Shown one piece after another: positions 16,364 to 40,601 of a stretch of DNA of 40,601 bases. How positions within the stretch are numbered: the first letter of the stretch is position 1; each line of letters opens with the position of its first letter. This DNA is from a virus. Location: the IMG/VR virus record IMGVR_UViG_3300011114_000214, positions 1 through 40,601 of that record. One strand, written 5' to 3'. The translations under genes and the position numbers were made by a program. Below the pieces are notes generated by a model. The model did no database searches. It was not told the DNA's origin and worked only from the letters and a program-made list of their open reading frames with translations.

Positions 16364-19300
16364 ATGGCAGAGCCAATGAAATTGGAAATGACTGTTCCAG
16401 GAACCAATCCAGCATCTAAATTCAACCCAAGAGGCCAGGATTACGATTACGAGAGGGCTATATCTTCCGGCATGGGTCCGGCTGCATCGGGTCCAAATGC
16501 CGGTCACTGGGGTTCTGTTGCTCCTGTTACTGCACAGGAGATGGCAACTCACGGACTCCCGGAAGGCAGTAGCATCATGCTTAAAGGTTCTCTTCATCCA
16601 ACATGGGACATGGCTGTTTCGGCAGAAAATGCTCGTGGATCTAAGATAGAAAAGCGAGGGGATAGATATTTCTCCGTACCGAAACAATCTAATAAGCAAA
16701 TATATGAATCATTGGTCTCGCTAAATTCAGAGCGAAATTCCAACCTAAGCATATCTGTAGATAATGCGGTAAAGTTTAATCCAGAGGTTGCCGCACAAGA
16801 TCAAAAGATATCTAGCGAGGTCGGCCTTTCTCCGGACATTGTTGCGATAAATAGAGAAAAGTTTCATCAAAGTTTACGGGCCGAAAGAATAAAGGAAATA
16901 GCTGATAACGGGATGAACCCGGCATTAAAGCAACTTTTCGCTGATCCGGAATTCGCCAAGATATCTCAACTTCACGCAAAAGAGTTAAGTGTTGTTGAGC
17001 AGTCAGCAAGAGCAATTAAAGCGGTGGGGTCCGGAGCCGTTGGGTCTCTTCTTGGTGGCGGTATTAAAGGTGCCGGATCAATAATAAGTGATCTGGCTTA
17101 CCTCCAAACCGGAGATAAGAATCTAAAATTAGGGTCTTCAATATATGGGATTGGAGAGAGCATTGAAGATTTCAGTAAAAAGTATTTAAGGCCAAGCGGC
17201 AATCTGAGCAAGCTTGAGCAGGTGGGGGAGGGTCTTGGACAAGCTGGTGGACAAGTTGCGCTGTGGGCGGTATCGCCACTTGCTAAAGTAACCTCGCTAT
17301 CATTGATGCTGGGGCAGGGAGCAACTGCCATGGAGGAGGCGATAAAGAATGATCCAGTTTCCAGAGCCGCTTCAGAGGTAGACAAGGCCGCCCAGAGATT
17401 AACTGGCGCGGTTATTACGGGAGCGACAAACGCTATTGCAACCAAGTTCTTTCTATCGGCGCCACAGACCCTGGCGTTATCTAATAAGTGGCTTCATCAT
17501 TCCATTACTGTCGGTCTTGGGGCTGCCGTTGAAGGCATCACAGAACTCGCTGAGAATGTTCTGCATGACATGGCCGGAGCAATGACAAGTGCGGAATCAA
17601 AAATAAAGTGGGCAGAGGCGCAGGATGCTGGGGAGATTGGAGCGTATGTTGGTGCCATAGTTCAGTCTATTGTAAATGCCGCGTTACATATCAAAGCAAA
17701 TAAACAGAAAAGCGAATTCGAGAAGCTGCAAACCGCCGGTGGTGAGCAGGGTTTAAAACAAAAGTCACCTGATGCATATAACAAATTCTCAGATTCAGTT
17801 GCCGCTCATATGGCGAATACAACTGATGGCCCCATTACTGATGTTTATATAGACAGAAACACATTCAAACAAGCGTTAACAGACAACAAAATAGACCCGG
17901 TCGCGGTTGGTAAAGCGATCCCATCTATTGGCGCACAAGTTGACTCCGTGGACGTAGGTGGGGACATTGTAATTCCAATGAATGACTGGATTGGGAAGGT
18001 AGTTGGAACAGATATTGGTGCAATGCTATCTCCTCATGCTAGGGGATCTGTAGATGCCCCATCTCTTAGCGAGGTCCAGCAAGCCACTGCAATGCAGCCA
18101 GAGATGTCAGAGCAGATACTCGCTGCTATAGCCAAGAAACAATTAAACGATGATTTCGTAAAGTCATCCCATGAATTCCAAGACATCATGTTTCGGCAAC
18201 TCAAGCAGACCGGAAGATATGCTGACCCAGTATCAAGAATTAATGCTCAGTTCGTCCGTGACTTTGTAGTCACCCAGGCCGCAAATCAGAACATGATGCC
18301 TATGGATTTCTTCAATAAGTATATGTACAAGGTGACCGCTGAAGGCCAGGCCGCGTTCAATCAAGAGGTTTGGCACGGATCTCCGCACAAATTCCCACCT
18401 ACGGAGAAGAACCCGCTGGGCGAGTTTAGCCTTGTGAATATCGGCACGGGCGAGGGCGCACAGGCTTTTGGCTATGGGTTTTATTTAGCTGAAGCAAAAG
18501 GATTGGCTAAAGGGTACGCGGATAATATTACCCTTAAAAATAACGAAGCCATCAAATATGATGGCGAAACAAATAAAGAAATAGACGGGGCTTTAAAAGC
18601 TCTATCTTATTTTTATAAAAATGCAGACAATATTGATCTATCAAACGCCAAACAGTTGGCTGAATTTGTAAACAATGCCGCCCAATTATCAGAAGACGAA
18701 GGTGATGTTGAAATAGCAAAAACTTTGAGAAGTTTGGATGTAAATAAATTACATGGGAACACTGGGAACATCTACAAGGTAGACTTACCTGATGAAATTA
18801 TAGCCAAAATGCTTGATTGGGAAAAGCCAATGAATCAGCAGCATCCTGATGTACAAAGGGCGTTTAACTATAAAGCCGCAGAAATGCCAAGTTTTACCAT
18901 TTCTGAGACAGGTAATCCAAATCCACTATATAAATATTCAGCAAGTCTGCGTTCCGACACTGGTAGTGATGTTAGATTTCCCGCTGCTCCAACACCTGAG
19001 GCAGCATTGAAAGAGGCTAAAGACTCAGTAAATAGCAGTGAATGGTTTAATGGAGTTAGTGGAGAAAAGGCATACAGAAAGCTGGCCGACAAGATAGGGG
19101 CTGCCGCCGCATCTAAAAAATTGTCGAAAGCCGGTGTCCCAGGTATCCGATACCTAGATGGGGTTAGTCGAGGCGCTGGCGAAGGTACATCTAATTTTGT
19201 CGTATTCGATCCCAAGGATTTGACCATTCTTGATCGCAACGGCGAAACTCAGAACCTTTTGAGGCAGTCATTATCAACTCGCCTTCCATCTTCAGCCAAG

Positions 19301-22300
19301 GCTACCGAAGATCCCATGAGTTCGGTATTGAACATTAATTTTGATGTGACAATGTCTGATGAGAAGACCCTCGCCAAGAATGTCAAAGTATTGCAAAGCA
19401 CAGTAAACTTTAGAAAGCTGAAGGGTGCTGGAGCGAAGGATATAAAGAAGAATGTTGAATCAATTATTGACCACATGGTCAGCAATCTTCTCTTCCTACA
19501 CGACTCTTTCCCGGCTGAGATGCGTGAGAGAGCGGAACTTTGGTATGACGGTGGAAGAAAAACGGCAGAGGAATGGGCGAATAGATATGGTATTAGCGAG
19601 ATGCAAGCGGCATCGGCAATTGCTGTTCTTTCCCCGCAAAATGGATGGTTTGCAAATGTAAGTTCAGCAGAACGAGTTGCTGACATTATCTTTGGAATGC
19701 AATCTTTTGTCTGGGATAGTGCCATGACAGAAGAAGCAAATAAAATCCCACAGGAAAAGCCAGAAGATAAAGCAAGGATGAAAATGGCTGAAGGAAAGTC
19801 TTTGGGTGAGTTGCTTAATGACCCAGAGATAGCCGCAAGATGGATTCGTGTTTTCGACCAGACATACAATAATCGTTCGTACAGAATACTAACCCCAGAG
19901 GGCGGTGTATCTGACTACGTTACGATAAAGGACGGAAGCGATGCAACCATGGCGTGGAAATCATTTGGAGCCATTGCCAAAGCAGTATCTATTCTGACAG
20001 ATGGAACCGCTAGTAATACTTATTACCAGATTGGAAAAGAACACAAGGTACGGAACTTCTACAATAACTTGTTCGATCCGAACAGCCCCCTTGGGTTTGC
20101 GACTATAGATACCCATGCGGTGGCTGCTGCGAACTTGCGCCCATTAGCGGCCCAGGATGACGAAGTTACTCAGGCCTTTGGTGGCGCCGGATCGTCCTCA
20201 TCTAGCAATACTGGATTAAATGGTACTTATCCGATTATTCACGAGGCTTATAGAAGGGCCGCTGAAGCCAGGGGAATACTTCCAAGGCAGATGCAATCAG
20301 TAACATGGGAAGCTGCCAGAGGGCTTTTTGAGGCATCTAAAAAGAGCGGGATGAAGACCGAAGCAAATGCGATATGGTCACGGTATAAGTCTGGAGAGAT
20401 AGATCAAGAACAGGCGCAGAAAGAAATATTTACCTTGGCCGGTGGAATTACTCCTCCAAGCTGGTCCAAGGTTCCATTCAATGACACAGTAGGGCGTACC
20501 TATGAGGGCGCATCACAAAAAGCAATCGATGCCATTGGTAATGTTGGCGCCAAGCCAAACCCTGTAAACGTCCTATTTGAAGTTGCTCCAGATCCCAATG
20601 ACGTAGAACTAACTGCCGCATGGAATGCTCTGTCACCTGCTGATAAGTTTAGAATTTCTCAAGATATTACAGCGGCGATTATCCCTAAAATACTTGAAGA
20701 GATCGGTAGTTCCGGCAAGGTTTCGGCAACGATTGGCGGGTACCTGGGAGCGACAAATCCATCCCTGTCTTTATCTATTGACAGAAAAGAACTGGCTGTA
20801 ACCGCAGCAAAACTTATCGGCCATGCCCTGTCTCAGGATGCGATGGTGGTTACAAGTGGGCAGCAAATAACAGGCACTTCCGCTGTTGGAGCGGTTTCTA
20901 TTGACCTCCCAGAGGGCTATGGAGAGAAAGAAATTACAGCTATGTATGACAAGCTGTGGGAACTTGAGAAGGACGGTAAAAAGCTTGTTAACGGATATAC
21001 CGCCCAAGATGGAATCATGGTTATTTTGAATCAATCAGGACTCAGCAATGAAGAATTTGCGCGTACAATAGAGTCACGACTAGGATCAGAGTTTGTGGTT
21101 CGCGGTGAAAATGTTTTTTCTGCTTTAATTGATAAGAAGGATTACGGTTATGACAGTAATAATGAACCAGGGGTGGCCGGACGGGCATCCATTGAAAAAC
21201 GGCGGCGTGATGATAGGTTTCGTGCAGAAGCGAACAGCCTCCTCAGAGAATCAATCGCCGAAATTGGCGCCAGAGGGACCGGAAACGGAAGCGGAAAGTA
21301 TTCGAGCGGAGGCCTTACGCCGCTTGAAGGTGGACCGGTTCGTGGCGAGGACACCAGCCCCGACCCCAAGCTTGTCAGAATCGCAGAGCAATACGCAGCA
21401 GACAATGGAATCGACCTCAAGCGACAAGCAGAATACGCCCAAGTAGATCCGGCCAGGGCAACTAGAATTGCCGATGCCTATGCCGAAATGAAGCATGACC
21501 CTCAAAACCCTGTGGTTGCAGAGGCGTATCAAAATATGATCAAGCAGACGAGGGCGCAATATCAAGCCCTTGTCGATGCTGGTTATGAATTCTATTTCTA
21601 CGACAATACCAACGATCCTTATGATGGTAACCCATGGAACGCGATGCGCGATCTTAGGGCCAACCAACGTATGGGGGTGTACTCAACAGAGGCTGGCTTT
21701 GGATCTGGGGATACTGCCGGTACTGTAGATCAAAACGTATCAAACAATCCCCTGCTAGAAGACACCGGGCTGGTCTGGATGTTTAACGGCAAGCCAAGGA
21801 AAGTCCTGGCAAACGATCTTTTCCGTGCTGTCCACGATGCATTCGGACATGGCCTGGAAGGGGTTGGGTTCAGAGCGGCCGGAGAAGAGAACGCATGGCA
21901 AGCCCACGTTAGATTGTTTACTGGATCAGCAGTCGCTGCACTTACTAGCGAAACTCGCGGCCAGAATAGTTGGACTAATTTTGGTCCATATGGAGAGCAT
22001 AATAGAACTGCGAAAGTAGAAGATACAATATTTGCTGATCAAAAAACCGGTCTATTGCCTGAGTTCGCATTGACAGAAGGTCGTGTTGGAGATCAGCAGA
22101 TCGCTCCAGAAGTTCGCCCAACTAACCTATTACGGCAGCCGGTACAAGGCCAGGAAGATGCCCGTGGTGGATTCGACCCAACCACTTTAACTACTATTCT
22201 TGGGACGGAAGCAGATAACTCCACCTTCCTCCATGAGACCGCTCACTTTTTCCTGTCGGTCTATGCGGATATGGCAGCGAATCCAAACGCAACAGAGCAG

Positions 22301-25300
22301 TCCAAACAAGATATGCAGACCGTCCTCGATTGGTTTGGAGTAAAAGATCTTGCTACCTGGAACCAAATGTCTCTGGACGAGCAGAGAAAATACCACGAGC
22401 AGTTCGCGTACAACTACGAGATCTACCTATTCGAGGGCAAGGCACCCAACATCAAATTGCAGACTATCTTTGATCGGTTCTCAGCATGGTTGGCCAGGGT
22501 ATACAAATCAATCCGTGATGATCTCAACGCAATCTACCGGCAAGAGCATGGCACTGACCTACCTATCCTGACCGGCGAGGTTAGACAGGTTATGGATAGA
22601 ATGCTTGCCACCTCAGAACAGATTAAGCAGACAGAGACCGTCCGTAACATGGTGCCTATATTCCAAACCCAGGAACAGTCTGGGATGGATGATAGCGAGT
22701 GGGCCGCTTATCAAGAGATGAGTCAAGAAGCCACCAACGCAGCCATTGGAGAGATGCAGACTGCAAGCCTACGTCAGATGAAGTGGTTATCTGGCGCTAG
22801 AAGCAGGGTTCTCAAGGAGATGCAGAAGGAGACCGCTGAGATTCGCAAATCTCTCAGGGATAAGATTGTCGAAGAGGTCAAAGCAGATCCAGTCTACCGT
22901 GCGATTAATTGGCTGAAGACCGGCGAGACCGTAGATCAGAACGGTAACGATATAAAAGTAGATGCCGGGTATAAGTTATCTATTGCCGCTGTTAAGGCAA
23001 TGTACCCAGAAAGCGATACAGCACTATATCAGGGTCCAGATTTAAAGATACTTGGCATGGGCAAGCAGCGGGGAATGATGTCTGAAGACGGACTTCATCC
23101 GGATCTAGTTGCTGAGATGTTCGGATTCAAGTCTGGTGATGATCTTGTTAGGGCATTGGTCTCCGCTCGTAAGTTTAACGATGAGGTCAATGTAAGAACA
23201 GACGAGAGAATGCTGGCCGAACACGCAGAACTGCAAGACCCAAAGTCTATTGAAGTCGCGGTCGAATCAGCAATACACAACGAGGCCCGTGCCAGATTCG
23301 TGTCTGTTGAGTTAAGGCACCTTGCCAAGGCAACTGCACCTGTCAGAGTAATGCTAGAAGCTGCTAGGCAAGCCGCTGTTGCGATATTAGCATCGAAGCC
23401 TATAGGTACTATCAAACCAAAGAATTATGCGATTGCAGAGGCTCGTGCGGCACAAGAGGCTATTGATGCAATTAAGAAGGGTGACACAGCCAAAGCATTA
23501 GAAGCCAAACGCAACCAGTTGCTGAATAACCAATTGGCGGCAGAAGCTATCAAGGCTAATCGGACCGTGGCCAAGTCTCTTGATCTATTCAAGAAAGTAT
23601 TCACCGCCGATTCTAGAATTGCAGATAAGCGCGACATGAATCTTGTTAGTGCAGCCAGGGCTATCCTTGCCAACTACGGGATGGGCAAGACTGAGTTACC
23701 GGCCGGGGCATACCTAGCAAAGGTGCAAGAGTACGATCCAGAGTTCTATGCAGAAATAGAGCCAATGATCACCGCCCATCTACAACAAGCCAAGCCAATT
23801 ACCGAACTGACAACGGATCAATTCACCGACTTATCTGAGCAGATCCAGGCTTTATGGCATCTATCGCGTAGAAATAAACAGATGGAGATTGACGGTAAGA
23901 TGGTCGATAGAAACCTTATCGTGGCTGAATTGGTTGATAGGGTTGGAGTTATTGATACAAAGAAAGAACGCCGTGGATATGACAAGGCTATGTCCGACTG
24001 GGATAAGCGCAAGATCATGTTGATGGGTGCCAGGGCTGCAATGCGTAGAGTCGAGTCCTGGGTTGATGCAATGGATGGCGGCAAGTTAGATGGTCCGTTC
24101 AGAAAGTACATCTGGAACCCGATCTCTGAGGCTGTTGCTGAATATAGAATAGCCAAGAATGAGTACCTCCAAAAGTATCTTGATATCGTTAAGTCGGTTG
24201 AGAAGGGCTTGGCTGCTGGATCTATAGCCGCCGGTGAAATAGGATACACATTCAAGAATAAGGCAGAACTGCTTCATGCCATCCTCCATACGGGGAATGA
24301 GTCTAACAAGAGAAAGCTTCTTCTTGGCCGGGGATGGGCTGAAGAGAACCAGGACGGGTCGTTAAATACCGCTCGCTGGGATAAGTTCATGTCTCGTATG
24401 TACGCAGAGAATAAGCTTTCCAAGGTTGACTTTGATTTCGCTCAGTCTGTCTGGGATCTGCTGGAAGAGATGAAGCCAGCGGCACAAAAAGTACATAAAG
24501 ATATGTACGGCTTCTACTTCAACGAGATCTCTGCTAACCCAGTTATAACTCCATTCGGTATATACAGGGGTGGATATGTACCTGCGGTGACCGACCCATG
24601 GATTAACACCGATGCGGCCATGCGTAACGAGCAAGAGACCGGCCAGACCGATAACTCCTATATGTTTCCGACCACCGGGCGGGGCTTTACCAAGGGTCGC
24701 GTTGAATACAACAAGCCATTAATGCTTGACCTTGGATACTTTCCATCCCACCTTGATAAGGTTCTAAGGTTCACTTACATCGAGCCAAAGATTAAGGATG
24801 TCGCAAAGATTGTAAAGACGAGCAAGACATTCTCTGCCGCTATGGATCAACTAGATCCAACAATCCGTGGCGATATGCTTGTGCCTTGGCTGCAAAGAAC
24901 TGCAATGCAGATGATAAAGACACCAATGAAGGGTGCCGGTGGAAAGTTGGCAGACAAGTTCTTCAGCGAGGTTAGAACCAGGACCGGGATGCAGATGATG
25001 GTTGGTAACGTAACCAATGCATTGCAACAGTTAACCGGTCTTTCCATTGGCGCGTTGAAGGTAAAGCCAGGCAATCTAAGAAATGCCCTGTGGTTATATA
25101 CCCGCCAGCCAACAGATACGTCAGCAATGGTTGCAGAAAAATCCAAGTACATGAATACCAGGATGAGCAATCAGCAATTTGAAATCTCAAAGACTATTGA
25201 GGAACTACTGCTGAATCCAAGCAAGTATGACAAATTAAGAAGCTTTGCTGGGAAGCATGGATACTTCATGCAGCAAGGTCTTCAGAATACCGTTGATACT

Positions 25301-26062
25301 ATTGTATGGATTGGCGCATATAACCAATCAATGACTGAAACCGGCAACGAGAGGGATGCTGTTAGAGCGGCCGATTCAGCGGTTCGACTCACGCAGGGCA
25401 GCTTCTCCCCGGAAGATGTATCTAGATTCGAGACCGGCACCGCATTCGTTCGAGCATTCACCATGTTTTACTCGTACTTCAATATGCAAGCAAACCTTTT
25501 AGGTACTGAATTCACCAAGACTGTTAAGGAATTCGGAGTTAAAAAGGGAATGGGCCAGTTGCTTTATATCTACACATTCGCATTTATGATCCCAGCAGTT
25601 CTTTCTGAAATCATAGTACAGGGTGCCGGTGGGTTCGCAGATGGTGACGATGATGAGTGGGATGAGAATGATGCCATGGCTTTATTCTTTGGATCGCAAG
25701 CCAGGACAGCCATAGCGATGATACCTATAGTCGGACCATCTATCATGGCCGGTGTTAATGCCTGGAACTCTAAGCCATATGATGACCGTATAAGTACATC
25801 TGCATCGATATCCGCACTTGAATCAACAGTTCGCGCACCGAATACTCTTTACAAGGCTATTGCTGAAGACGGTTCCTGGAAGAAGGCTATCCGCGATACG
25901 CTGACCGCACTTGGAATGATCACAGGTCTTCCTCTTGGGCAGATGGGTAAGCCTATTGGGTACGCTGCTGACATAGCGCAGGGCAAGGTAAACCCAGAGA
26001 GTGCTATGGATGTGACTCGTGGAGTTATCTCTGGAAAGGACGTAAATAGACCGAATCAATAA
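16364..26062 (+). CDS. giant polyvalent ejection protein (ART-like, DUF7178-like, metallopeptidase domains)
   Basis: 3232 residues, the largest gene here. Approximate layout: 1-110 N-terminal region with a GHW motif; 213-246, 286-333 and 364-410 glycine/alanine-rich helices that could enter membrane; 668-955 ADP-ribosyltransferase-like domain (EVWHGSPHKF with H671, GEGAQAFGYGFYLAE with Y707, then GVPGIRYLDG and GEGTSNFVVFD); 990-1330 DUF7178-like domain (WYDGGRKTAEEWANRYG, ATIDTHAVAAANLRPLA); 1400-1650 a further module; 1660-1905 conserved phage domain with H1824-D-A-F-G-H1829; about 1955-2050 zincin metallopeptidase with HETAH at 1957-1961 and a downstream acidic stretch; 2060-2950 long helices; 2950-3232 C-terminal region with hydrophobic segments about 3064-3091 and 3104-3134. 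This is the T7 gp16 position, so it is probably packaged and ejected first. Activities are family-based inferences. DNA around 18530-18960 looks more A/T-rich than its surroundings. Confidence 0.85.
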   Translation: MAEPMKLEMTVPGTNPASKFNPRGQDYDYERAISSGMGPAASGPNAGHWGSVAPVTAQEMATHGLPEGSSIMLKGSLHPTWDMAVSAENARGSKIEKRGDRYFSVPKQSNKQIYESLVSLNSERNSNLSISVDNAVKFNPEVAAQDQKISSEVGLSPDIVAINREKFHQSLRAERIKEIADNGMNPALKQLFADPEFAKISQLHAKELSVVEQSARAIKAVGSGAVGSLLGGGIKGAGSIISDLAYLQTGDKNLKLGSSIYGIGESIEDFSKKYLRPSGNLSKLEQVGEGLGQAGGQVALWAVSPLAKVTSLSLMLGQGATAMEEAIKNDPVSRAASEVDKAAQRLTGAVITGATNAIATKFFLSAPQTLALSNKWLHHSITVGLGAAVEGITELAENVLHDMAGAMTSAESKIKWAEAQDAGEIGAYVGAIVQSIVNAALHIKANKQKSEFEKLQTAGGEQGLKQKSPDAYNKFSDSVAAHMANTTDGPITDVYIDRNTFKQALTDNKIDPVAVGKAIPSIGAQVDSVDVGGDIVIPMNDWIGKVVGTDIGAMLSPHARGSVDAPSLSEVQQATAMQPEMSEQILAAIAKKQLNDDFVKSSHEFQDIMFRQLKQTGRYADPVSRINAQFVRDFVVTQAANQNMMPMDFFNKYMYKVTAEGQAAFNQEVWHGSPHKFPPTEKNPLGEFSLVNIGTGEGAQAFGYGFYLAEAKGLAKGYADNITLKNNEAIKYDGETNKEIDGALKALSYFYKNADNIDLSNAKQLAEFVNNAAQLSEDEGDVEIAKTLRSLDVNKLHGNTGNIYKVDLPDEIIAKMLDWEKPMNQQHPDVQRAFNYKAAEMPSFTISETGNPNPLYKYSASLRSDTGSDVRFPAAPTPEAALKEAKDSVNSSEWFNGVSGEKAYRKLADKIGAAAASKKLSKAGVPGIRYLDGVSRGAGEGTSNFVVFDPKDLTILDRNGETQNLLRQSLSTRLPSSAKATEDPMSSVLNINFDVTMSDEKTLAKNVKVLQSTVNFRKLKGAGAKDIKKNVESIIDHMVSNLLFLHDSFPAEMRERAELWYDGGRKTAEEWANRYGISEMQAASAIAVLSPQNGWFANVSSAERVADIIFGMQSFVWDSAMTEEANKIPQEKPEDKARMKMAEGKSLGELLNDPEIAARWIRVFDQTYNNRSYRILTPEGGVSDYVTIKDGSDATMAWKSFGAIAKAVSILTDGTASNTYYQIGKEHKVRNFYNNLFDPNSPLGFATIDTHAVAAANLRPLAAQDDEVTQAFGGAGSSSSSNTGLNGTYPIIHEAYRRAAEARGILPRQMQSVTWEAARGLFEASKKSGMKTEANAIWSRYKSGEIDQEQAQKEIFTLAGGITPPSWSKVPFNDTVGRTYEGASQKAIDAIGNVGAKPNPVNVLFEVAPDPNDVELTAAWNALSPADKFRISQDITAAIIPKILEEIGSSGKVSATIGGYLGATNPSLSLSIDRKELAVTAAKLIGHALSQDAMVVTSGQQITGTSAVGAVSIDLPEGYGEKEITAMYDKLWELEKDGKKLVNGYTAQDGIMVILNQSGLSNEEFARTIESRLGSEFVVRGENVFSALIDKKDYGYDSNNEPGVAGRASIEKRRRDDRFRAEANSLLRESIAEIGARGTGNGSGKYSSGGLTPLEGGPVRGEDTSPDPKLVRIAEQYAADNGIDLKRQAEYAQVDPARATRIADAYAEMKHDPQNPVVAEAYQNMIKQTRAQYQALVDAGYEFYFYDNTNDPYDGNPWNAMRDLRANQRMGVYSTEAGFGSGDTAGTVDQNVSNNPLLEDTGLVWMFNGKPRKVLANDLFRAVHDAFGHGLEGVGFRAAGEENAWQAHVRLFTGSAVAALTSETRGQNSWTNFGPYGEHNRTAKVEDTIFADQKTGLLPEFALTEGRVGDQQIAPEVRPTNLLRQPVQGQEDARGGFDPTTLTTILGTEADNSTFLHETAHFFLSVYADMAANPNATEQSKQDMQTVLDWFGVKDLATWNQMSLDEQRKYHEQFAYNYEIYLFEGKAPNIKLQTIFDRFSAWLARVYKSIRDDLNAIYRQEHGTDLPILTGEVRQVMDRMLATSEQIKQTETVRNMVPIFQTQEQSGMDDSEWAAYQEMSQEATNAAIGEMQTASLRQMKWLSGARSRVLKEMQKETAEIRKSLRDKIVEEVKADPVYRAINWLKTGETVDQNGNDIKVDAGYKLSIAAVKAMYPESDTALYQGPDLKILGMGKQRGMMSEDGLHPDLVAEMFGFKSGDDLVRALVSARKFNDEVNVRTDERMLAEHAELQDPKSIEVAVESAIHNEARARFVSVELRHLAKATAPVRVMLEAARQAAVAILASKPIGTIKPKNYAIAEARAAQEAIDAIKKGDTAKALEAKRNQLLNNQLAAEAIKANRTVAKSLDLFKKVFTADSRIADKRDMNLVSAARAILANYGMGKTELPAGAYLAKVQEYDPEFYAEIEPMITAHLQQAKPITELTTDQFTDLSEQIQALWHLSRRNKQMEIDGKMVDRNLIVAELVDRVGVIDTKKERRGYDKAMSDWDKRKIMLMGARAAMRRVESWVDAMDGGKLDGPFRKYIWNPISEAVAEYRIAKNEYLQKYLDIVKSVEKGLAAGSIAAGEIGYTFKNKAELLHAILHTGNESNKRKLLLGRGWAEENQDGSLNTARWDKFMSRMYAENKLSKVDFDFAQSVWDLLEEMKPAAQKVHKDMYGFYFNEISANPVITPFGIYRGGYVPAVTDPWINTDAAMRNEQETGQTDNSYMFPTTGRGFTKGRVEYNKPLMLDLGYFPSHLDKVLRFTYIEPKIKDVAKIVKTSKTFSAAMDQLDPTIRGDMLVPWLQRTAMQMIKTPMKGAGGKLADKFFSEVRTRTGMQMMVGNVTNALQQLTGLSIGALKVKPGNLRNALWLYTRQPTDTSAMVAEKSKYMNTRMSNQQFEISKTIEELLLNPSKYDKLRSFAGKHGYFMQQGLQNTVDTIVWIGAYNQSMTETGNERDAVRAADSAVRLTQGSFSPEDVSRFETGTAFVRAFTMFYSYFNMQANLLGTEFTKTVKEFGVKKGMGQLLYIYTFAFMIPAVLSEIIVQGAGGFADGDDDEWDENDAMALFFGSQARTAIAMIPIVGPSIMAGVNAWNSKPYDDRISTSASISALESTVRAPNTLYKAIAEDGSWKKAIRDTLTALGMITGLPLGQMGKPIGYAADIAQGKVNPESAMDVTRGVISGKDVNRPNQ

Positions 26063-33088: not shown

Positions 33089-33302
33089 GTTTATTCCTCG
33101 ATTCCATTAAGATTTTGTATAGCTTTCTTTCTCCGTCAATTCTTTTACCTTTTAACAAATGCTCTTGATATTTCAACGCTTGGCGCATAAATGTTAATTC
33201 CCTTCTAGCAATGAATAATTTTTCAGCAAGCACTCTTGAATCGGTTGTGGTTTCCAGAATGGCATTGACTGCTTGCTCTCTATTCTCTGTCTCATTATCC
33301 AC
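33081..33302 (-). CDS. small charged helical protein, function unknown
   Basis: 73 residues from a GTG at 33302; an excellent AAAGGAGG site lies seven bases upstream, deciding the start. The product is nearly all helix with alternating charges (NREQAVNAILETTTDSRVLA; ARRELTFMRQALKYQEHLLK), likely a coiled coil. It overlaps the SleB start by 8 bases and the end of the upstream TGT-like gene by 109 bases. No family was recognised. Confidence 0.55.
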   Translation of the reverse strand: MDNETENREQAVNAILETTTDSRVLAEKLFIARRELTFMRQALKYQEHLLKGKRIDGERKLYKILMESRNKHG

Positions 33303-33964
33303 GCCCTAGCCTCCTTTGTCGGTGGCGTATAAGTACCTTTCCACGCCGAATCTATCCCTATATTTTTTGCAATATTCGTACTATCGGCACTTGCAAACGG
33401 GAGCCTTGAAAATACATCTGGGTCAAGCATACGAAGCCCATGCAGTTTGCATATTGGGTTCCCGGACTTGTCGCATATAGAATTCATAGCTTCAGCGATT
33501 CTAACCCACCACAAAGAATTTCCAATTGCAGAGAAATTTCCACTTGAACCCAAACAAACTCTGGGCCAGTTTGTAGCCAATGACTGTAACCTTTCTATAG
33601 ACTCATGTAAGTGCCAAACAGGTGACCCAATCCATTTATTCTTTGCATCTTGCCAGGGCCACTCCTCAATAAGAGCATCATTCATCTCCTCCGTTCCATC
33701 AATAATGTCAGGAATTACAGCAAAATCAAAATTAGGAATTCTATGTAACTTCGCTACCCATTCGTAATATCTATTCCAATCGGTTACAGGCTCCCCGCTT
33801 CGCCAAGCAGAAAATGCTCCATTGTCAACCGCAAAACTTTGACAAACTTCAACGGCTACAGACAATTGGTGCGGGTCACGAAAACTTACAAAAGCATGAC
33901 CGCCGGAAATTGCTTGCGCGGCAGCCGTTGATGGATTAATTGGCAAACCGTGATAATGAATCAT
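33194..33964 (-). CDS. TGT-like (queuine tRNA-ribosyltransferase fold) phage protein
   Basis: 256 residues, starting MIHYHGLPINPSTAAAQAIS. GGHAFVSF and DNGAFSAW (resembling the DSGGF substrate-binding motif), DFAVIPDIIDGTEE, VCLGSSGNF, LHGLRMLDPDVF and SADSTN follow the order of motifs in tRNA-guanine transglycosylase-type TIM barrels and the DpdA-like phage branch. The C-terminal zinc cysteines of bacterial TGT are not visible. A base-exchange activity on tRNA or DNA is possible; the rest of a deazaguanine pathway is not in the window. GGGGAAATAA precedes the ATG. The C-terminus overlaps the next gene by 109 bases. Confidence 0.6.
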   Translation of the reverse strand: MIHYHGLPINPSTAAAQAISGGHAFVSFRDPHQLSVAVEVCQSFAVDNGAFSAWRSGEPVTDWNRYYEWVAKLHRIPNFDFAVIPDIIDGTEEMNDALIEEWPWQDAKNKWIGSPVWHLHESIERLQSLATNWPRVCLGSSGNFSAIGNSLWWVRIAEAMNSICDKSGNPICKLHGLRMLDPDVFSRLPFASADSTNIAKNIGIDSAWKGTYTPPTKEARAWIMRQRIESKQSMPFWKPQPIQECLLKNYSLLEGN

Positions 33965-37959: not shown

Positions 37960-38148
37960 ATGAATAAAAAAGAACTTATAGAATTGTTGGGGGGAACCGC
38001 AGAAAGGGCGGCAACAAAGCTTGGATACAGTCACAGAAACAGTGTCCAGCGTTTCCCAGATGAGTTGACTGCTAGTCAGGTCAATGTTGTTTTATTAAGA
38101 ATGAGGGCTGTCAGAATACCTATCCCTCAAAATTGGAGATTAAAATGA
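37960..38148 (+). CDS. Cro-size transcriptional regulator
   Basis: 62 residues from ATG 37960; the frame opens earlier (from 37906) but into the promoter. Sequence MNKKELIELLGGTAERAATK, then LGYSHRNSVQRFPDELTASQ, VNVVLLRMRAVRIPIPQNW. The first half reads as helix-turn-helix with AERAATKLGYSHRNSVQRFP, like Cro/YdaS-type proteins. It is divergently placed against the early operon and likely represses one or both promoters. The start has no ribosome site. Its stop overlaps the next gene's start (ATGA). Confidence 0.7.
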   Translation: MNKKELIELLGGTAERAATKLGYSHRNSVQRFPDELTASQVNVVLLRMRAVRIPIPQNWRLK

Positions 38149-38369
38149 AATCACAGAAACTTAGGTTGTTAGAATGGCTAAAGAAGCACGGCAGTGTCAC
38201 TCGTATACAGGCATATGAGAAGCTTGGAATCTTTGAACTGTCTCGCCGGTTGTCAGAGTTACAGGCTGATGGCCATATCATAGATAGATCTATGAGGGTT
38301 TATGTCAAGAACCGGTTTGGAGAAGAAATTAAGGTAGGAAAGTCTTTTCTTATTAAAGCAAAATACTGA
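38145..38369 (+). CDS. winged-helix DNA-binding protein (HTH_39-like)
   Basis: 74 residues from ATG 38145 (GGAG upstream, ATGA overlap with the regulator). Sequence KLRLLEWLKKHGSVTRIQAY, EKLGIFELSRRLSELQADGH matches the HTH_39 family of small phage proteins (LL-x-LK-x-HG-S-[IV]-T-x-x-A followed by L-x-I-x-x-L-[AS]-x-R-[IL]-S-E-L). A basic wing follows (VKNRFGEEIKVGKSF). It may regulate the downstream replication gene. Confidence 0.75.
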   Translation: MKSQKLRLLEWLKKHGSVTRIQAYEKLGIFELSRRLSELQADGHIIDRSMRVYVKNRFGEEIKVGKSFLIKAKY

Positions 38370-38375
38370 TATAAT
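38367..38375 (+). promoter_or_regulatory. extended -10 promoter of the structured leader
   Basis: TGATATAAT (38367-38375) is a perfect extended -10 (TGnTATAAT) one base after the preceding stop; a -35-like TTCTTA lies 17 bases upstream (3 of 6). Transcripts should begin about 38380-38383, exactly where the first stem-loop starts. Confidence 0.6.
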
Positions 38376-38379
38376 CACC

Positions 38380-38513
38380 CTGCCTGGATTCGCAAACTGG
38401 GCAGCCAACGGAGTACCAAATGCAAATAACTAGTATCTTTTATGATGGGACCAGGGCGAAACGCCTATGCTCCGTTGCGGCTATTGTCTGTCGGGTTGCT
38501 CCCGGCTCCCATC
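38380..38513 (+). ncRNA. structured RNA leader, candidate C4-like antisense/leader RNA
   Basis: Stem 1: CTGCCTGG (38380-38387) with CTGGGCAG (38397-38404), eight pairs with two G-U. Stem 2: CAACGGAG (38406-38413) with CTCCGTTG (38470-38477), eight perfect pairs plus two more inward, enclosing a small GGCG-AAA-CGCC hairpin (38455-38465). Stem 3: CGGG-TTGCT-CCCG (38492-38504). The segment 38444-38462 in the stem 2 loop is complementary to 38495-38513 at 15 of 19 positions, including GATGGGA with TCCCATC, which ends four bases before the AAGGA of the next gene. This self-complementarity around a ribosome site recalls phage C4 antisense RNA, but family membership is not established. Confidence 0.5.
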
Positions 38514-38528
38514 GAAAAGGATATTAAA

Positions 38529-39353
38529 ATGCATTACTATAAATTCAATATCGCTGATTACCGCAAGGACACGGTCCACCTGACCCCGATGGAGCATTAC
38601 ATCTACCGGAGTCTGATCGATTGGTACTACCTGGACGAACTTCCAATACCGAAAGAAACCCATTCGGTTACCCGCCGGTTATGCCTGGGTATTGAGTCGG
38701 TTCCGCAGTTACAGAATGTTCTCAACGATTTCTTTAAATTGACCGATTCCGGTTATGAACATAAAAGAATTGTTCTCGAAATTGCTGAGTACCATAGCAT
38801 TTCTGAAATAAATAAGGTCAATGGTAAGAAGGGTGGGCGGCCTCCAAAGCCAATAGCAGCAGTAGAGAAAACCCATCCGGTTAATTCCGCTAACCGAAAT
38901 GAAAGCGAACGTAACCCTAACCAAGAACCATTAACCATAAACCAAGAACCATTAACCAATAATAAAATACATACGCATCTATCGATGCTTCTCAATGTTG
39001 GAGTTGAAAAACAAATAGCAAAAGACTGGCTGTCGATAAGGAAGATCAAAAGACTTCCCCTTACAGAAACCGCATTTGATTCTATTTCCAAAAAGATTCT
39101 GGGTGCCGGGCTGACAATGAACGCCGGTATAAAGATTTGTGTTGAGCAGGGGTGGGCTGGTTTTAGTGCGGACTGGCTGAGTTCTGTCCCAGAGCTGAAG
39201 GTGAGCGGTCCGTTTGTTCACTGGTTTGATACGGAAGAAGCAACGTATGAAAGGGCAAGAAAGGAAGGAGTGTCAACTGAAGGTGTCGATCTTGGAACAT
39301 TGCGAGTGAGGGTGAATGATGTTATACAATCAAAAAAGCAACAACGAGCTTGA
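38529..39353 (+). CDS. DUF1376 (YdaU-type) replication protein
   Basis: 274 residues from ATG 38529, with AAGGA eight bases upstream; the frame is open from 38442, but those 29 codons lie in the structured leader. The N-terminus MHYYKFNIADYRKDTVHLTP, then EHYIYRSLIDWYYLDELPIP is diagnostic of DUF1376, the winged-helix domain of phage replication initiators. A KKGGRPPK linker and two NQEPLT repeats (about 131-146) lead to a C-terminal domain (WLSIRKIKRLPLTETAFDSI, AGIKICVEQGWAGFSADWL). It probably binds the origin, perhaps the repeats in its own gene, and loads the helicase. No helicase gene is in the window. Confidence 0.85.
   Translation: MHYYKFNIADYRKDTVHLTPMEHYIYRSLIDWYYLDELPIPKETHSVTRRLCLGIESVPQLQNVLNDFFKLTDSGYEHKRIVLEIAEYHSISEINKVNGKKGGRPPKPIAAVEKTHPVNSANRNESERNPNQEPLTINQEPLTNNKIHTHLSMLLNVGVEKQIAKDWLSIRKIKRLPLTETAFDSISKKILGAGLTMNAGIKICVEQGWAGFSADWLSSVPELKVSGPFVHWFDTEEATYERARKEGVSTEGVDLGTLRVRVNDVIQSKKQQRA
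38919..38958 (+). repeat. tandem 19-bp repeats inside the replication gene (candidate origin)
   Basis: AACCAAGAACCATTAACCA occurs at 38919-38937 and 38940-38958 (21-base period), in a strand-asymmetric A/C-rich stretch with related AACC steps just before, followed by the A/T-rich AATAATAAAATACATAC. This recalls iterons within lambda O. The repeats encode NQEPLT-type linkers. Confidence 0.5.
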
Positions 39354-40019: not shown

Positions 40020-40278
40020 AGCGAATGTGATTTATCTCCAAGAGTTCCGCAAATCCAAGAAAAGTCTGCTTATGAATCAGTCGGATCTGAAGACTGAAAG
40101 CGCGAAGGAGGCTTTCGCTTACGCCCACGAGGAATACCAAGATCACCTGGCCGCGATCCGGGTTGCCATCGAGGAATACGAGTCTATGAGGTGGATGATG
40201 ATTGCAGCCCAGGCTAAGATTGATGTCTGGAGATCCTTGGAATCAAGCGCGAGAATGCTCGACAAGGCAGCAACGTGA
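39946..40278 (+). CDS. conserved early phage protein, helical
   Basis: 110 residues; GAGGTG upstream of ATG 39946. Sequence FKALDYLRDHAEEYGRCKAN, YLQEFRKSKKSLLMNQ, AYAHEEYQDHLAAIRVAIEE, MIAAQAKIDVWRSLESSARM. It is a commonly seen small protein beside recombination/replication genes in proteobacterial phages; all helix, no known activity. GTGA overlap with the next gene shows coupling. Confidence 0.7.
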   Translation: MKDEISPFKALDYLRDHAEEYGRCKANVIYLQEFRKSKKSLLMNQSDLKTESAKEAFAYAHEEYQDHLAAIRVAIEEYESMRWMMIAAQAKIDVWRSLESSARMLDKAAT

Positions 40279-40601
40279 CCAGTCATATTATTTCATTCTC
40301 TGGCGGGATGGGTTCTTTTGCGGAAGCAGAGGCTTGTGTTGCCAAGTATGGCAAGGAGAATGTAATTACTTTATTTGCCGATACCTTGATAGAGGACAAA
40401 GACTTGTACCGCTTTATGAAGCAGTGCAGCGCATTCTTAGGTTGCCAGCACATTACTATTGCAGAAGGGAGAACCCCGTTCCAGGTATTTGAGGATGTGA
40501 AGTTCATGGGGAATTCTAGGATAGACCCATGTAGCAGAATCTTAAAGAGAGACTATCTAGACAAGTTCATTACAAGGCATTGGAACTTTGATGAGGTTGA
40601 G
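40275..40601 (+). CDS. PP-loop ATPase-like protein (adenine nucleotide alpha hydrolase type), 3'-truncated
   Basis: 109 codons open to the window edge, from GTG 40275 overlapping the preceding stop (GTGA). FSGGMGSFAEAE is a PP-loop variant (SGGxGS, compare SGGKDS), followed by ITLFADTLIEDKDLYRFMKQ and RTPFQVFEDVKFMGNSRIDP then CSRILKRDYL. This fits phage proteins related to PAPS reductase/QueC/DndC-type adenylating enzymes; the C-terminal part that would tell them apart lies outside. Confidence 0.7.
   Translation, partial: MTSHIISFSGGMGSFAEAEACVAKYGKENVITLFADTLIEDKDLYRFMKQCSAFLGCQHITIAEGRTPFQVFEDVKFMGNSRIDPCSRILKRDYLDKFITRHWNFDEVE

Follow-up and report, generated by a model that had tools for sequence, protein, structure and literature searches.

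The window, i.e. the whole 40,601-base stretch of a virus record that was analysed here, codes for terminase, head-tail adaptor, major head, tail and virion structural proteins, and includes a recombination block composed of SSB, a RecE-like exonuclease and an Erf-like annealing protein. Its rightward operon displays, in this order, a small protein, a winged-helix protein, an RNA leader and a DUF1376 / primosomal replication protein, the presumed target of the leader (Table 1). Elsewhere in the window were recorded a queuine tRNA-ribosyltransferase-like gene on the minus strand (33197-33964; phrog_887, 1.9e-72), a PAPS-reductase-like protein on the plus strand that is truncated by the window end (40275-40601; phrog_424, 5e-14) and, downstream of the tail genes, one open frame of 3,232 codons, also on the plus strand (16364-26059).

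Table 1. Positions in the window of the leader elements and of the operon genes around them.
Feature	Position	Strand	Remarks
Unassigned small protein	37960		rightward operon
Winged-helix protein	38145-38369		rightward operon; PF14090
Extended -10 promoter element, TGATATAAT	38367-38375	+	sole perfect match in the window
H0, 5' hairpin	38380-38404	+	predicted fold; 5 pairs in 15/15 annotated homologues; loop covaries with loop B
SD1 region of the small ORF, 'b'-type target, CAACGGAG	38406-38413	+	pairs with 38470-38477; own-versus-foreign P<=8e-5
Small leader ORF, 35 codons	38420-38527	+	1 nt between its stop and the DUF1376 start codon
Stem P1, 5' strand	38431-38450	+	pairs with 38507-38526; covarying pairs in the upper stem
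Arm A of the junction	38454-38489	+	loop holds anti-SD1 CTCCGTTG (38470-38477), complementary to CAACGGAG (38406-38413)
Arm B of the junction	38490-38506	+	pairs 2-5, counted from the loop, conserved in 15/15; loop covaries with the H0 loop
Stem P1, 3' strand, containing SD2	38507-38526	+	fold and covariation
DUF1376 / primosomal replication protein, putative controlled gene	38529-39353	+	PF07120, 9e-20; phrog_6451, 2e-35

Architecture of the leader

An earlier note on this DNA, made from the sequence alone, had drawn attention to a perfect extended -10 element at the head of the leader, and this element was indeed the only one in the window. Since 2.0 such matches were expected by chance, it could be a chance match. 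The predicted transcript would start at about 38380-38382. No consensus -35 was found at this leader promoter; in most homologues, a -10-like hexamer, read by eye, occurred a few nucleotides upstream of the hairpin. A consensus scan of region 38300-38620 recovered neither a terminator nor an antisense promoter.

The leader RNA was predicted to fold with a minimum free energy of -53 kcal/mol (z -2.9). Its first element is hairpin H0, whose loop (38388-38396) displays a GCAA core (38392-38395) that provides an 'a'-type target. SD1 (CGGAG, 38409-38413) follows and precedes the ATG of a small ORF at 38420. This ORF harbours a three-way-junction RNA (38431-38526) composed of a closing stem, P1, and two arms, A and B. 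Stem P1 comprises 19 pairs, extends down to 38431 x 38526 and sequesters SD2 (AAGGA, 38517-38521), the ribosome site of the DUF1376 gene. Arm A is clear in four homologues (L112, L002, L004 and L012) and weaker in the window itself. The loop of arm B (38496-38500) exposes a TTGC core (38496-38499) complementary to the GCAA of the H0 loop, which amounts to a contact of 4 bp in the window. As the helix between SD1 and loop A crosses stem P1, either both coexist as a pseudoknot or they are mutually exclusive; a complex formed in cis must therefore be a pseudoknot.

Homologous leaders and covariation

A DUF1376 search together with three DNA patterns gathered 21 distinct leaders, referred to as class A. 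The model built from them found one sense-strand copy per record, along with weak opposite-strand matches that are due to the long stem, and it had no matches to the other types of leader described below (class B and the int-alpA-like class C). The covariation that the earlier note had proposed to look for upstream of DUF1376 genes was present in this set. The same stem P1 and arm B folded in all 21 leaders. Compensated pairs were observed in the upper part of stem P1 (A-U:9/G-C:9; G-C:10/A-U:8), and the portion holding SD2 was near-invariant across the class. The stem-loop that had been noticed at 38380-38404 was likewise predicted by the fold as H0, and its five counted, loop-proximal pairs were kept in every annotated homologue with up to five pair types per position.

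Both tertiary contacts were tested by permutation, the loop of each leader being compared with its own target and with those of the other leaders. Between the H0 loop and loop B, where every haplotype displayed four to seven Watson-Crick pairs, the own sum reached 53 against a permutation mean of 29.9 (P ~2e-5). Between SD1 and loop A, the own sum was 65 against 45.8 expected (P 8e-5), or 96 against 61.9 once G-U pairs were included (P 4e-5). Eight non-cognate controls were run, of which seven gave P >=0.057 and one 0.014 (G-U counted). Because the haplotypes are related, these P values serve as a guide and not as proof.

The argument for both antisense contacts, as far as sequence comparison can make it, is instead that two-sided changes recur. 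The cores of the H0 loop and loop B changed together as GCAA/TTGC, ACAA/TTGT, GTAA/TTAC, ACGA/TCGT and GATAAA/TTTATC, and further as TAGTAAC/GTTACTA, AATGAA/TTCATT, GATAA/TTATC and TTGAC/GTCAA. Upstream of the coding sequence, leaders L002 and L030 differed only in H0 and arm B, and differences between L106 and L107 fell mainly in the same two elements. The loops fall into distinct groups among near-identical leaders. Covariation thus lends support to stem P1, H0, arm B and the predicted contacts of SD1 with loop A and of the H0 loop with loop B.

These data also modified some of the pairings that had been put forward. The stem between 38406-38413 and 38470-38477 was exact, with eight Watson-Crick pairs, and covaried. 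The longer pairing of 38444-38462 with 38495-38513 did reach the 15 of 19 positions claimed for it, but was conserved only where it coincides with stem P1: seven of the 15 counted pairs (38444-38450 x 38507-38513) belong to this stem and were paired in 93% of homologue cells, against 47% for the remaining 12 positions. As a unit, this 19-nt pairing was rejected for want of conservation outside stem P1. The antisense segment and its target thus had to be reassigned, as the antisense loops sit downstream and aim upstream at SD1 and the H0 loop, and the ribosome site of DUF1376 itself is held in stem P1. SD1, the 35-codon ORF, stem P1 over SD2 and the contact 38392-38395 x 38496-38499 had no counterpart in the earlier note.

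The small ORF was present in all 21 class A leaders, with 31 to 38 codons and a purine-rich SD upstream, and its stop invariably lay between -4 and +11 nt from the next start. Shuffles of the interior reproduced such an ORF and stop placement in 6-28% of cases, depending on the leader. The encoded peptide was not conserved overall (the frame used through the 5' arm is a different one in the L083 group) and matched neither Pfam nor PHROG; a functional leader peptide was rejected on these grounds. The pattern fits selection for ribosomes that traverse stem P1 and halt beside the next start, and not for the peptide.

The first gene after the leader was variable and included several kinds of DUF1376 gene, a 61-codon ORF, a GIY-YIG-like ORF and HNH-like ORFs (identified by eye). 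A replication-like gene, also recognised by eye, came next after the first ORF in L005, L025, L112 and L291. Inspection by eye further indicated that some ORFs inserted between leader and replication gene resemble homing endonucleases (GIY-YIG-like in L005, HNH-like in L291, uncertain in L112).

Relation to C4 and other leader RNAs

The suggestion that this is a C4-like internal antisense leader placed on a replication gene was strengthened by the comparison with phage P1, since the order of parts matches that of immI and both contacts covary. The search of Rfam that had been proposed as a check returned nothing: neither the window nor, more narrowly, the leader matched any family, C4 and c4-a1b1 included. 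C4 (RF01695) was absent from the leader even at E<10, whereas the phage P1 C4 scored 68.8 bits; c4-a1b1 (RF03163) stayed below the model cut-off in the leader, against 51 bits in phage P1; and int-alpA (RF02996) was below its cut-off in the window. A new C4-like variant, set apart from Rfam C4, is the best reading of the leader.

Phage P1 immI (L303) displays successively a promoter, the c4-a1b1 hairpin with a1 in its loop, b1, the C4 junction, a2, b2, icd and ant1. As a control, the C4 of this phage was found to carry b', complementary to b1, followed by a', complementary to a1. In C4, b' covers a ribosome site, specificity comes from a', and RNase P excises the RNA (PMC5320573). A 66-codon ORF (L303:268-468) starts at b1, spans C4 and ends two bases ahead of the icd start (471); this ORF is missing from the feature table of the record.

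The class A leader shares with this region the order of its elements: after the promoter come 'a', located in a hairpin loop, then 'b' and a junction with b' followed by a'. Here too, the junction is embedded in a small ORF that ends beside the start of the next gene. It is a three-way junction closed by a long stem P1 (arm A being weak in the window), and its two antisense segments match 'b', a ribosome site, and 'a', a hairpin loop. Differences are nevertheless numerous. Class A leaders lack the UUCG arm and carry anti-SD1 in the loop of the first arm; their a' lies in the hairpin loop of the second arm, and not in a single strand after it as in C4. Stem P1 itself hides the ribosome site of the next gene, and a search beside this downstream site found no a2 or b2. 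The distance from 'b' to the junction is 18 nt, as against 66 nt in phage P1. Lastly, a replication gene, in some cases with an ORF inserted ahead of it, takes the place of the icd-ant antirepressor as the target.

Other known systems displayed partial similarities. In isrK-orf45-anrP of Gifsy-1, a 5' RNA pairs with a short, coupled ORF that is conserved at the nucleotide and not the amino-acid level, and whose stop codon overlaps the next start (PMC4825925); the stop of the small leader ORF is likewise located at the next start. IsrK, however, ends at a terminator and acts in trans to activate an antirepressor (PMC4825925), whereas the present leader has no terminator and stands on a replication gene. 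The isrK family model gave no match in the window, nor did it in the control genomes. The CI immunity RNA of P4 limits the replication genes of this phage by antisense pairing with leader sequence, and so is also an antisense RNA within the leader of replication genes; yet it works by ending transcription prematurely and has targets on either side (PMC4825925), whereas the targets here are ribosome sites.

The int-alpA RNA (RF02996) resembles the leader in occurring before DUF1376, in related viruses, and in forming a three-way junction with a loop complementary to the downstream ribosome-site region. It differs in sequence, its antisense segment lies 5' of its target and the class A model did not match it. 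In the plasmid replicons repY-repZ (IncI-alpha), repB-repA (IncB) and tap-repA1 (IncFII), a leader ORF is coupled to the replication protein, IncI-alpha and IncB leaders forming a loop-based pseudoknot, and a separate antisense RNA is produced from the opposite strand. In this last respect the leader is different, as the consensus scan found no opposite-strand promoter in it.

Mode of action and other junction RNAs

We favour, with a probability of roughly 0.7, a C4-like antisense leader in which a double lock, combined with translational coupling, keeps the replication operon silent. In the mechanism that we infer from the observed structure, covariation and placement of ORF stops, the 3' half of the leader would fold as the three-way junction, so that stem P1 conceals SD2; loop A would pair back onto SD1 of the short ORF and loop B would kiss hairpin H0, which would add affinity and specificity. 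With SD1 free, the short ORF would be translated and stem P1 melted, and ribosomes would halt beside the DUF1376 start, the replication protein then being made through translational coupling. With the junction RNA on SD1, both the short ORF and DUF1376 would remain silent. The isrK-orf45-anrP system provides a precedent for coupling via a small ORF of which nucleotides and not amino acids are conserved (PMC4825925). Since SD1 could be loaded before the junction is transcribed, and since the junction may bind the leader of another transcript, synthesis of the replication protein might be damped as leader RNA builds up. Such action of the junction RNA in trans is plausible.

The strongest competing explanation, which we hold at somewhat less than even odds, is a compact leader acting purely in cis, in which the loop contacts stabilise a tertiary fold hiding both ribosome sites. 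Opening would depend on the speed of translation, on temperature or on a host factor, and no second RNA would be involved. Every contact can indeed form within one molecule, stem P1 alone is very stable, no second target was found in the 60 nt downstream, and neither a terminator nor an antisense promoter was detected at 38300-38620. On the other hand, both loops change together with little else, which is more typical of trans-recognition specificity, and the class B leaders, which occupy the same position, have a terminal T run by which a junction RNA could be set free.

Another rival, a strict C4 analogue, would have the released junction act in trans as an immunity or copy-control RNA, silencing incoming or sister leaders, with loops that define immunity groups. 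The order of parts shared with a1-b1-C4 of phage P1, the processing of C4 and its loop-defined specificity in trans (PMC5320573) and the distinct loop groups found among near-identical leaders all speak for it. Still, there is no second target downstream, and no integrase was found in 20 class A records, window included, although most of these are fragments; we regard this version as somewhat doubtful. Because of the missing integrase, lysogenic immunity is not established and was downgraded as the default reading; feedback on replication or competition among co-infecting viruses would fit as well.

Activation of the IsrK type appears improbable. A separate short RNA made from H0 would compete with the contacts of the H0 loop with loop B and of SD1 with loop A and so switch the operon on, a design for which isrK-orf45-anrP, with its upstream ORF coupled to the target, is a model (PMC4825925); yet the consensus scan revealed no terminator after H0 in the window, hence no obvious short RNA from this hairpin. 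Attenuation through a leader peptide responsive to a residue or metabolite, or feedback exerted by replication protein bound to the leader, would account for a short ORF upstream of a sequestered ribosome site but is hardly credible given the unconserved peptide, the use of another frame through the 5' arm in one group and the occurrence of the same leader before several unrelated first genes.

The known role of C4, in P1-like phages, is antirepressor control. The class A leader, in the reading favoured here, would place its two-contact logic, unrecognised by C4 models, on a replication operon and fuse it to the ribosome site of the target. RNAs of this kind may go unnoticed, being buried in a small ORF and matched by no model. 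In the literature searched, none was described upstream of DUF1376 genes. Eight regions from cultured phages, seven of them with a DUF1376 relative, contained no leader of the class A type; a neighbouring gene adjoins or overlaps the start of the DUF1376 relative in six of these seven and ends 54 nt ahead of it in the seventh. Among the matches listed, a loose-pattern scan of genome contigs gave no structured match, and a scan keyed on the start of the small ORF gave mostly chance matches and no new group.

At least three junction types unrelated in sequence (classes A, B and C) occurred at the same position before DUF1376 genes, so that related virus replication genes are found behind several different antisense-type junction RNAs. 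It is conceivable, if on balance unlikely, that trans-acting junction RNAs set a whole family of virus replication operons, with the two loops defining compatibility groups. If so, related viruses would sense each other's leader RNA and curb replication in a co-infected cell without lysogeny; as the pairing code is legible from sequence, the compatibility groups would be predictable.

Class B (L006, L009, L016 and L018) displays an unrelated three-way junction before DUF1376 with a T run after stem P1; the example at L006:2900-3000 had no Rfam match. Segments of this class match the loop of an upstream hairpin (TTGGAAG/CTTCCAA, TTGGTAG/CTACCAA and TGGTGG/CCACCA) and an upstream site (TTAGTA/TACTAA and CTAGTAA/TTACTAG). 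Class C, also before DUF1376, is int-alpA-like, L057 scoring above the RF02996 cut-off and L032 only weakly. In L032 (202-277) and some 20 haplotypes, the P3 loop matched the downstream ribosome-site region, with a sum of 101 against 85.5 by permutation (P 1e-4). The P2 loops of class C were often palindromic (TCATGA, TAGCTA, TAATTA and GATC), which could allow loop-loop dimers.
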